Positions 19,146-23,957 of a DNA stretch of 32,019 nucleotides are shown here, one piece after another. The position numbers and the translations under genes are program-made. Positions within the stretch are counted from its first letter, which is position 1. Each line of letters opens with the position of its first letter. The DNA is from an uncultured Porphyromonadaceae bacterium (GTDB taxonomy: Bacteria; Bacteroidota; Bacteroidia; Bacteroidales; Muribaculaceae). The stretch is taken from positions 1-32,019 of the forward strand of contig CAMWSV010000004.1 in NCBI GenBank assembly GCA_947177015.1, given 5' to 3'. The notes below the pieces were generated by a model. That model was not told where the DNA came from. It saw only the letters and a program-made list of their open reading frames with translations, and did not search any database.

Positions 19146-20666
19146 TTATTGATGGGCGGGGCGGAGGAGGTCGTTGACTGTCTTGACGGGGTTGAAAGTG
19201 TCGGCAGGGACTTCGATAAATATGGTGTTCCAGTCAGACATGGCTCCGTTCCAGAGTCCCGGGAGTTCGAGGGCTTTGATAGTGACCCCTTCGCGACTCT
19301 TCTCGGATATAAAACCTGTAGCAGGATCCACAAAGTCGGGGAGATTGAACTTCTTGCCTTCGAAATCCTTGATAGCCACTACGAGATCGACAGGATTGAA
19401 GTGGGTGGCTTCATTGAGCATCTTTTTGGATGCCTTGTTATCGGGGTCGATCTGTGTGGATTCAAGAATCTGAGGTTGTACGGTGCCGTCGGGGCTGTAT
19501 GCGAGGAACGGACCGCCGCCGGGTTCGCCTTCATTCTTCACCATGCCGCACACGCGGAGCGGACGGTTAAATTTCGAGAAGAGATAATCCGCTTCCTCTT
19601 CGGGGCTCATCCGGTCGGCATCATCGTGAGTGACACAGAGCACATTGCGCAGGAACTGAAGCATCTCTTCACGTTCCTCTTCTGAGGGGAGACCCTCCTT
19701 GAGCCGGCGGCAATATCCGTCGATTTTCATTTTTGTACCCGCGAGGATTCCGCCGATCACCTTTTTATATTCGATGGTGGATTCGCGCAAGGCATCAGGC
19801 ACAACGTTGTCGATATTCTTGATGAAGATTACATCAGCATCGAGATCGTTGAGATTCTCGATGAGTGCGCCGTGGCCACCGGGACGGAAGAATAGTTTAT
19901 CGTCTTCGCGATAGGGTTCGCCTGAGGGGAGGGCTGCCACCGTGTCGGTAGAAGGTTTCTGCACACTCAGTGTGATGTCGAGTTTAATACCGTAGTGATG
20001 TTCCATATAAGCCTTCACCTCTTCGATCTTGGCTTCTACCAGTGGCAGATGATCTTCGCTCACTGTGAAATGGAGATGGAGATGCTTATCCTTACCTACG
20101 GCGTATTGCGCCCCCTCGGCGATATGCTCTTCGAGCGGGGTGCGAGACACTCCGGGCACACGGTGGAACTGCAGCAGAGCCTTCGGCAGATGTCCGTAGC
20201 CCAGCCCGGGGGTAGTGAGCAGAACGCTGAGGATATCCTTATAGCGCTTCTCATTAATCAGTGAGTCGATGCTGAGTCCGTAGAGGGTGAGGGTCTCAAG
20301 ATTGAGGATGTGATAGAATGCGAAGTCTTCAATGCGGTTGAAGAAAGTCTTTATAAAATCATTGTCGGGAGTATTTTTCTTGCCGTTGAGGAAGGAGAAG
20401 AGATCCTTAAACATACGCGAAGCCGCGCCTGAGGCGGGAGTCATCTTCATGATTTTTGCGCCTGATGATAGATACTTATCCCAAATCTCCACGCTCTGAC
20501 GGATAAGGTCGGCGGAGGGCACGGTGATGCCGTGGCCCGGGGTGGCTGCCGCTTCGATTGCCAGATAGGGGAAGCCTTCGGAGAGTTGACGGAGTTGCGC
20601 GTTAAGTTTTTCTTCAGAAATACCTCTCTGGCGGAGTGTCTCAAGGTCTTGGGGTGTGATAGTCAT
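19146..20666 (-). CDS. DUF4301 family protein (nucleotidyltransferase-like motifs)
   Basis: 506 aa; overall DUF4301-like; motifs 'KMTPASGAASRMFKDL', 'VQKPSTDTVA', 'FFRPGGHGALIENLNDLDADVIFIKNIDNVVP'. Confidence 0.75.
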   Translation of the reverse strand: MTITPQDLETLRQRGISEEKLNAQLRQLSEGFPYLAIEAAATPGHGITVPSADLIRQSVEIWDKYLSSGAKIMKMTPASGAASRMFKDLFSFLNGKKNTPDNDFIKTFFNRIEDFAFYHILNLETLTLYGLSIDSLINEKRYKDILSVLLTTPGLGYGHLPKALLQFHRVPGVSRTPLEEHIAEGAQYAVGKDKHLHLHFTVSEDHLPLVEAKIEEVKAYMEHHYGIKLDITLSVQKPSTDTVAALPSGEPYREDDKLFFRPGGHGALIENLNDLDADVIFIKNIDNVVPDALRESTIEYKKVIGGILAGTKMKIDGYCRRLKEGLPSEEEREEMLQFLRNVLCVTHDDADRMSPEEEADYLFSKFNRPLRVCGMVKNEGEPGGGPFLAYSPDGTVQPQILESTQIDPDNKASKKMLNEATHFNPVDLVVAIKDFEGKKFNLPDFVDPATGFISEKSREGVTIKALELPGLWNGAMSDWNTIFIEVPADTFNPVKTVNDLLRPAHQ

Positions 20667-20707
20667 AAGTGTATGTTTTTTATTGGTGTAGAATTTTTAT
20701 GGAGTAA

Positions 20708-20772
20708 ATACTGATTCAATTTATGTAATGAATATTGATTCAATATGTGAGTAAATATTGATTCAATAGGTG
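20708..20772. repeat. Three-copy iterated dyad upstream of DUF4301
   Basis: TGATTCAAT at 20712, 20736 and 20759 (period 23-24); copies 2 and 3 are ATTGATTCAAT perfect dyads. Confidence 0.75.
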
Positions 20773-20792
20773 AGGATCGGGGGCTGAAAAAA

Positions 20793-21580: not shown

Positions 21581-23833
21581 TTAGATTCGGGTCACCTCCT
21601 TGACCCCCTTTACGGTGCGTATCTTCTTCATCACTGACGAAAGTTGGGAATTGTCAGAGACACCGATGGTGAGGTAGCCCTGAAACATTCCGGCATTATC
21701 CGTATCCACCGAGATGTTGCGCAGGTTGACGCCCATCTCTTTGGAAATGATGGAGGTGATATTAGCGAGGATGCCGAGATCATCATTGCCGATGATGCGC
21801 ACATTGGCAGAGAGCATATCTCCCGTCTTACCGCTCCATTCCACGGGTATCACGCGATAGGGGTAACGCGCGCGGATGTTGGCGGCATTCGGACAATCCT
21901 TCTTATGCACTTTCACCGTGCCCTCGGAGGAGATGAATCCGAATACGTCATCGCCATATATAGGATTGCAGCACTTGGCAAACTTATAACTCAGACCGGC
22001 GATCGATTTGCCACCGATTACAAGCACATCGCTCTTGGAATCCTCCTTCTCATTTTGCTGAAGCACAAACTCACCCGCCGATACTTTCTCGCCATCGCCC
22101 GTTTCCGCTATGACTTCATCCTGATAAGTCTGGAGGAAGCGCGCCACGTCGAGTTTCTCAGTAGCCATATCCGAATAGAATTCATTGGCAAACTTATAGC
22201 CTGCCTTCTTTATGAGTTTCATCAGTATAGACTCGTCGAGTTCGATCTTGCGATTTTTGGCGCGGCGTTCAAGGAGTTCCTTACCGAGGTCAGCGAGTTT
22301 CTGAGCCTCCTCGTTGAGAGCCTGACGAATCTTATTACGTGCCTTGGTGCTGACCACGATGTTGAGCCAGTCCTGTTTGGGAGTCTGGGTCGAGGAGGTG
22401 ATGATCTCTACAGTGTCGCCGTTCTGGATGCGATGTGTTATCTTGCGGTGTTTGCCATTGACTACGGCTCCAATACACTGCGAACCCACGTTGGAATGAA
22501 TTCTGAAAGCGAAATCCAGCACGGTGGCTCCGGCAGGGAGTTTGAAGAGGTCGCCTTTGGGAGTAAAGGCGTAAATTTCCTTCTCGTAATCATCCATCTT
22601 GAGATGGCGCATCATCTCCATCGGTCCGTCGTGGGCGGATTCGAGAATGTCGCGGATATTATTCATCCACTGGTCGGTGGAATCAGACTTAACCCCCTTA
22701 TATCGCCAATGGGCGGCGAGACCCTTCTCTGCCACGAGGTCCATGCGGCGCGTACGGAACTGCACTTCGACCCACTTGCTTTCGGGACCCATCACCGTGG
22801 CATGAAGCGATTCATAGCCGTTGCTTTTAGGAATTGAGATCCAGTCGCGCATACGGGCAGGGTTAGGGGTGTACATATCGGTGAGGATAGAATAGGCGAG
22901 CCAGCAATCCGACTTCTCCTTCTCAGGCTCCGAATCCAGAATCACGCGGATGGCAAAGAGGTCGTAGATGCCTGATACATCCACTTTCTGCTTCTTCATC
23001 TTGCCCCAGATTGATGAAATCGACTTTGTGCGCCCCTTGATGGAGAACTTGAGTCCGGCGGCTTCGAGTTTCTGCTTCACCGGGTCGATGAAGGATTTGA
23101 TATAAGCATCGCGCGAACGCTTGGTAGCGTTAAGTTTATGCGCTATCTGAGAGTAGATCTCGCGATTCGAATATTTCAGCGAGAGATCTTCGAGTTCGCT
23201 TTTGAGTTTATAGAGTCCGAGGCGGTGGGCGAGTTGGGCGTAAAGGCAATTAGCCTCAAAAGCCACGTCGCGCACCCAATCCTGATCGGGATGCAGATTG
23301 ATGTCGCGCATCAGCACGAGGCACTTCACGATCATGATGATGATCACGCGGATGTCGTCGGCGAGGCTCAGCATCAGTCCGCGGAAGTTGTCCTGATTCA
23401 CGGCATTGTTCTTATTCGAGAATTTCTCAACGGCAGCCACTCCTACAAGCAGCGAAGCCACGTCCTCACCCCAGAGCGAGCGGAGTTCGCTGATGCTGTA
23501 GATCTCATCCTCAAGCATGGGGTAGAGGATTATGGCGAGCATTATATTATGGTCCGGGTCTATGGCATCGGCAAAGAGGAGAGCCGTCTTCAGGGTGAGC
23601 AACGCCTTGGAGATGCCGTGAGTGTTGCGCGGAGTCTCACCGCGTCGCATGGCCTCAATGCAGAGCGACTTTATTTTTGCAATCTCATTTGCCGATAGCG
23701 ACTCGGCGGCGATTGCCTCTACCCGGCGTATCAGCGAGAGTATCTCGCGCCTTTCTGCCACACTAAGCGGAGCGGTAGGGGAGAGGATTGCCCCCTCTGG
23801 TTGAATAGAGGGGTGAGAAATATGTGTTTCCAT
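21581..23833 (-). CDS. relA: RelA/SpoT-family (p)ppGpp synthetase, degenerate HD domain
   Basis: Synthetase 'GRTKSISSIWGKM...RMRDWISIPKSNGYESLHATVMGPESKWVEVQFRTRRM...AAHWRYK', TGS 'IYAFTPKGDLFKLPAGATVLDFAFRIHS', CC domain and C-terminal ACT; start set at METHIS (23833). Confidence 0.93.
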   Translation of the reverse strand: METHISHPSIQPEGAILSPTAPLSVAERREILSLIRRVEAIAAESLSANEIAKIKSLCIEAMRRGETPRNTHGISKALLTLKTALLFADAIDPDHNIMLAIILYPMLEDEIYSISELRSLWGEDVASLLVGVAAVEKFSNKNNAVNQDNFRGLMLSLADDIRVIIIMIVKCLVLMRDINLHPDQDWVRDVAFEANCLYAQLAHRLGLYKLKSELEDLSLKYSNREIYSQIAHKLNATKRSRDAYIKSFIDPVKQKLEAAGLKFSIKGRTKSISSIWGKMKKQKVDVSGIYDLFAIRVILDSEPEKEKSDCWLAYSILTDMYTPNPARMRDWISIPKSNGYESLHATVMGPESKWVEVQFRTRRMDLVAEKGLAAHWRYKGVKSDSTDQWMNNIRDILESAHDGPMEMMRHLKMDDYEKEIYAFTPKGDLFKLPAGATVLDFAFRIHSNVGSQCIGAVVNGKHRKITHRIQNGDTVEIITSSTQTPKQDWLNIVVSTKARNKIRQALNEEAQKLADLGKELLERRAKNRKIELDESILMKLIKKAGYKFANEFYSDMATEKLDVARFLQTYQDEVIAETGDGEKVSAGEFVLQQNEKEDSKSDVLVIGGKSIAGLSYKFAKCCNPIYGDDVFGFISSEGTVKVHKKDCPNAANIRARYPYRVIPVEWSGKTGDMLSANVRIIGNDDLGILANITSIISKEMGVNLRNISVDTDNAGMFQGYLTIGVSDNSQLSSVMKKIRTVKGVKEVTRI

Positions 23834-23925
23834 AAATCCAATAGTTCTTAAAAGAGAGATTCCGGCGGATTGCCATATATGAGCGGAATGCCTTACGGAA
23901 AAAGATTCCGGAATCAGTGTTGCTA

Positions 23926-23957
23926 CAAACTTACAAAATTTATTGAATCTATGCAAG
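23926..23957 (-). promoter_or_regulatory. Bacteroidota promoter for relA
   Basis: Minus strand CTTG-N20-TAAGTTTG. Confidence 0.65.

Follow-up and report, generated by a model that had tools for sequence, protein, structure and literature searches.

The DUF4301 protein encoded in the window (the whole 32,019-nucleotide stretch of DNA analyzed here) is predicted, with very little doubt, to adopt a GT-A fold and to belong to the UDPGP branch of that fold, a placement that rests on sequence comparison and a structural model. The gene lies on the minus strand at positions 19146–20666, as a single open frame with an ATG start, 506 codons, and a stop codon; ORF, Pfam, AlphaFold2, and Foldseek analyses together describe its product as a 506-residue UDPGP-like nucleotidyltransferase. 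The protein is a full-length member of PF14134 (DUF4301), with residues 5–506 aligned to profile positions 2–507 (E = 1.1e-208; 694.7 bits, compared to a Pfam cut-off of 27). DUF4301 was found in 58 of 61 near relatives and, nearly always as a single copy, in 281 of the 295 genomes sampled from the Bacteroidales (the order to which Bacteroides and Prevotella belong), yet Pfam assigns it no function, and annotated relatives are still named “DUF4301 family protein” in RefSeq. Nearly all genomes of the 295-genome set are at least 90% complete, and the window's own genome (84%) was included. Across the phylum, 52 of 297 genomes carry the gene, again nearly always once. NCBIfam gave no match to the window protein at E ≤ 10, the GalU model TIGR01099 included, and a full-text search across 5.39 million papers found no functional report on DUF4301; the single mention was in a rumen metaproteome table, among the proteins of Prevotella ruminicola (PMC7035244).

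An AlphaFold2 model, built with the window protein and 50 relatives from named genomes as input, was obtained with a mean pLDDT of 91 and a pTM of 0.90. The initial annotation had proposed a GT-A nucleotidyltransferase fold, to be compared with the UAP1 and UGP2 structures, and Foldseek searches of the PDB agreed with it: the 45 best matches were all UDP-glucose pyrophosphorylases (UGP) or UDP-N-acetylglucosamine pyrophosphorylases (UAP), all eukaryotic (E = 6.3e-11 to 2e-6), in alignments of approximately 500 columns that spanned the whole protein. A GT-A core with UGP/UAP topology is therefore present in the predicted model. Sugarcane UGP (5weg) was the best match (E = 6.3e-11), and UAP structures appeared at ranks 9–45, interleaved with UGP. 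Rank 46 was another nucleotidyltransferase, inositol-phosphate cytidylyltransferase, with an E-value of only 5.5e-4. The TM-scores against UGP and UAP were moderate (0.40–0.52 on the query), probably because of long helical stretches, read as insertions, in DUF4301. In a library of viral structures, the best match was the UGP of a Klosneuvirus (E = 1e-8).

Profile searches pointed to the same group, with weak but specific matches. A profile of 35 DUF4301 members, drawn from across the phylum, matched only UAP 3oc9 and the UGPs 2i5k and 5weg in the PDB; these matches were individually weak (best E = 0.0074), and used two separate regions, one extending from the GHG motif to N-x-D-N and the other comprising the C-terminal FN and PVK...DLL motifs. 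A shallower profile, restricted to Bacteroidales, gave weaker matches than the phylum-wide one. Fourteen of the 35 members matched Pfam UDPGP at E ≤ 0.1 (best E = 9.1e-5), and no other foreign Pfam family was matched by more than one. The window protein itself scored 16.3 bits against PF01704 (UDPGP), below the curated cut-off of 22, and is therefore a relative of the family rather than a Pfam member. A single-sequence PDB search with the window protein returned cytochrome c matches only, which were judged to be due to chance.

The motifs on which the initial annotation had relied were all located: the N-terminal glycine-rich stretch, KMTPASGAASRMFKDL, corresponds to residues 74–89, and the later block to LHFTVS...QKPSTDTV (residues ~198–243) and FFRPGGHG...KNIDNVVP (residues ~259–290). 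The by-eye alignment proved correct: the UGP counterparts are “PPGHG” for PxGHG, “N-x-D-N” for “NIDN”, and the “FNQ” segment for the Q-K stretch. The order of these motifs is not a chance likeness, in that the profile aligned UAP and the UGPs at exactly these places and the fold search agreed. A further C-terminal stretch, absent from that annotation, was also aligned to UAP and the UGPs by the profile.

A paper on AnUGP lists Leu121, Gly123, Gly124, Gln198, and Gly227 as uridine contacts, Lys135, His228, and Lys403 as phosphate contacts, Asp258 as the Mg contact, and Asn256, Glu307, Asn329, and Asn331 as sugar contacts (PMC10470519). Residue numbers were paired with DUF4301 by motif. In the profile–PDB alignments, Q236, G264, H265, and N284 fall on the motifs of Gln198, Gly227, His228, and Asn256, and D286, E402, N424, and K495 on those of Asp258, Glu307, Asn329, and Lys403, respectively; all eight residues are invariant in 35/35 DUF4301 sequences across the phylum. 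The residue set of the UDPGP group, namely the catalytic His, Asp, and C-terminal Lys, the uracil-binding Gln, and the sugar-binding Glu and Asn, is thus found in DUF4301. On the minus strand, Q236, the counterpart of the uracil-binding Gln, lies within S234-x-Q236-K-x-x-T-D (19944–19967; aligned with 5weg), H265, the counterpart of the phosphate-binding His, within R261-P-G-G-H-G266 (19869–19886; aligned with 3oc9, 2i5k, and 5weg), and N284 and D286 within K283-N-I-D-N287 (19806–19820). E402, the counterpart of the sugar-binding Glu, lies within E402-S-T-Q405 (19452–19463; aligned with 2i5k and 5weg), N424 within F423-N-P-V-D427 (19386–19400), and K495, the counterpart of the catalytic Lys, within F491-N-P-V-K-T-V-N-D-L500 (19167–19196), which is also covered by the Pfam UDPGP match. 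The sole mapped catalytic position to be altered is that of Asn331, the second sugar-site Asn, which is Val426 in DUF4301.

Equivalences in the N-terminal part follow from motif order and predicted secondary structure. The putative nucleotide-binding loop, P77-A-S-G-A-A-S-R-M85 (20412–20438, minus strand), sits between the first core strand (residues 72–76) and a helix (residues 82–94), like the UGP loop, and would take the position of the UGP LxGG loop; A78, S79, G80, R84, and M85 are invariant in 35/35 sequences. P161-K162 (20181–20186, minus strand) is likewise invariant, and K162 is the proposed equivalent of the phosphate contact Lys135, with G80, R84, and K162 in the right order for an N-terminal loop followed by a phosphate-binding Lys. 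The poorly conserved helical stretch between the loop and the P-K motif (residues 90–157; 20196–20399, minus strand) is probably, judging from the model, an insertion relative to UGP. DUF4301 thus shares with UDPGP-type UGPs (PF01704; 5weg, 3r3i, 2icy, and 4r7p), its best Foldseek matches, the GT-A core and the GHG, N-x-D-N, (L/I)-L-E-x-x-Q, FN, and PVK...DLL motifs, but differs in the PASGAASRM loop, in the stretch 90–157, and at its C-terminus. Only 11 residues follow the PVK lysine, too few to form the left-handed beta-helix described at the C-terminus of UGP (PMC10470519). UAP1/AGX1 (3oc9, 6tn3, and 1jv1) provided the top PDB profile match; however, identity to DUF4301 is 10–13%, and nothing points to GlcNAc-1-phosphate specificity.

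The conservation of these positions makes it very probable that the DUF4301 protein is an active nucleotidyltransferase. The initial annotation had left the choice between such an enzyme and a derived pseudo-enzyme; the former part of the proposal is upheld by the mapped catalytic residues, invariant except at Val426, and the latter is not. An inactive protein with a binding or regulatory role would be consistent with the divergent nucleotide loop (PASGAASRM in place of LxGGxGT), with the replacement of the UGP Asn by Val426, and with the absence of any known DUF4301 substrate, but is very unlikely because the equivalents of the uracil, phosphate, Mg, and sugar contacts of UGP are invariant in all 35 sequences, which would not be expected under relaxed catalysis.

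UTP and a sugar-1-phosphate, glucose-1-phosphate included, are the somewhat favored substrates, with both the uracil base and the sugar-1-phosphate acceptor being inferred. DUF4301 would then act as a Mg-dependent pyrophosphorylase, converting UTP and a sugar-1-phosphate into a UDP-sugar and pyrophosphate. The nucleotide base would be held by the P77–M85 loop, Q236, and G264, the beta and gamma phosphates by K162 (and R84), and Mg by D286, while the phosphosugar would rest against N284, E402, and N424. H265 and K495 would hold the phosphate of this sugar for its attack on the alpha phosphate of the NTP, with departure of pyrophosphate. Counting against UTP and a sugar-1-phosphate as substrates, no conserved carbohydrate operon was found in the DUF4301 neighborhoods.

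A special form of this proposal is that DUF4301 is the UDP-glucose pyrophosphorylase of the Bacteroidales, serving glycogen and galactose metabolism and filling the gap left by a missing GalU. The idea is attractive because GalU and PF01704 are rare while most of these genomes carry a GT3 glycogen synthase: of the 295 Bacteroidales, only 17 carry GalU (TIGR01099 over cut-off) whereas 265 carry GT3, and PF01704 was detected in one of the 75 Bacteroidota tested. UGPs are also the best fold matches of the DUF4301 model, UDP-glucose pyrophosphorylase activity is ascribed to Prevotella bryantii (Lou 1997a, as cited in PMC4432691), and the gene ahead of DUF4301 in one lineage (L083) resembles, by eye, a glycogen debranching enzyme. 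Displacement of GalU by DUF4301 was nevertheless rejected, since cross-tabulation of DUF4301, GalU, and GT3 over the 295 Bacteroidales gave no pattern of replacement; GalU is present in 2 of the 14 genomes without DUF4301 and in 15 of the 281 with it, and GT3 is kept in 11 of those 14. In addition, most of the phylum has neither DUF4301 nor GalU, and for gut bacteria without galT an earlier prediction assigns the uridylyltransferase step to GalY, a PF00483 protein (PMC5583593). GalU and the other NTP_transferase proteins (TIGR01099 and PF00483, including the predicted GalY) resemble DUF4301 in chemistry and in belonging to the wider GT-A nucleotidyltransferase superfamily, but DUF4301 matches neither model, and its distribution is not complementary to theirs. 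UDP-glucose is thus a possible product, to which comparative genomics lent no support, and the assignment of DUF4301 as the missing enzyme is doubtful.

Gene neighborhoods in one family (f30), which we take to be the Flavobacteriaceae, point in a different direction. A PnuC gene lies directly upstream of DUF4301 in 25/25 loci, its product matching the nicotinamide-riboside transporter PnuC over cut-off, and a NadR-type nicotinamide-riboside kinase is fused to DUF4301 in 13 of these loci, adjacent in nine, and absent from three. Similarity between this kinase and NadR is confined to the kinase half of the latter. A second kind of fusion was found in one Bacteroidales genome (G433), where DUF4301 shares a single 701-aa frame (L216, 6073–8178) with a P-loop kinase resembling Cytidylate_kin2. 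Both the kinase fusions and the pnuC neighborhood suggest that the substrate is of nucleoside type and not a hexose. By analogy with the bifunctional NadR (NMN adenylyltransferase and ribosylnicotinamide kinase), DUF4301 might act on a nucleoside-type monophosphate supplied by the linked kinase, for example on NMN as an adenylyl- or other nucleotidyltransferase of the GT-A fold; unlike in NadR, the kinase comes first, and the other half of the fusion is DUF4301 rather than the NMNAT domain. Several observations make this unlikely: at least 15 DUF4301-carrying genomes have neither PnuC nor any AAA_28 kinase, three Flavobacteriaceae loci keep DUF4301 without a linked kinase, three other Flavobacteriaceae (L201–L203) retain the PnuC–kinase pair without DUF4301, kinase-linked and unlinked members show the same invariance at the UGP sugar-site residues, and the flavobacterial operon also holds unrelated genes. 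It is quite unlikely that DUF4301, as a GT-A nucleotidyltransferase, activates NMN or another phosphate of nucleoside type, which would make it a UDPGP-group enzyme that forms dinucleotides; in that case, the kinase–DUF4301 fusion would represent a second kind of NadR-like bifunctional enzyme, unrelated to the first. A kinase and a nucleotidyltransferase in one chain are also described for FKP, the fucokinase/GDP-fucose pyrophosphorylase of Bacteroides (PMC11982464), a likeness in principle only. In two flavobacterial loci (L118 and L113), no NadR-type kinase lies between pnuC and DUF4301, and in L118 (7640–9159) DUF4301 is split into two frames.

A protein of the Thiamine_BP family is encoded upstream in some of the flavobacterial operons; a role of DUF4301 in thiamine metabolism was considered and set aside, but is conceivable. 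Against this, an Rfam search of six loci found no riboswitch, only Flavo-1 RNAs, and the adjacent transporter is the PnuC noted above. Outside the Flavobacteriaceae, DUF4301 neighborhoods show no conservation except for a RelA/SpoT gene, which is the immediate divergent neighbor in 45 of 90 Bacteroidales loci. In the window, the RelA/SpoT gene (21581–23956) lies two genes upstream of DUF4301 and is co-directional with it. Three near-identical, tandem GIY-YIG-like small ORFs were seen directly upstream of DUF4301 at another locus (L089, 9461–10430).

On present evidence, DUF4301 forms a new branch within an enzyme group already known, and does not represent new chemistry. The branch would be a Bacteroidota addition to the UDPGP family, for which the solved structures encountered in this analysis all come from eukaryotes; structural-domain databases may already contain the fold relationship in implicit form. 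Placement in the UDPGP group narrows DUF4301 to a short list of questions, namely which NTP and which phosphorylated acceptor are used, and the kinase fusions offer a concrete route to the substrate.

Very weak DUF4301 matches in two Bacteroidales lineages (G358 and G483; E = 1e-4 and 7e-6, respectively) are perhaps fragments or a divergent paralogue. The few matches in plasmid and phage records appear to be pieces of chromosome that were wrongly labelled; three short, unannotated “Bacteriophage sp.” records that carry DUF4301 (MT839125, MT837672, and MT837181) are probably fragments of bacterial chromosomes filed as phage. Upstream of the DUF4301 start in the window, by 39–101 bases, ATTGAATCARTATTYA is present in three tandem copies with a period of 23–24 (20696–20774), three matches in the window compared to a chance expectation of 0.16; the array is possibly an operator array or a simple tandem duplication.
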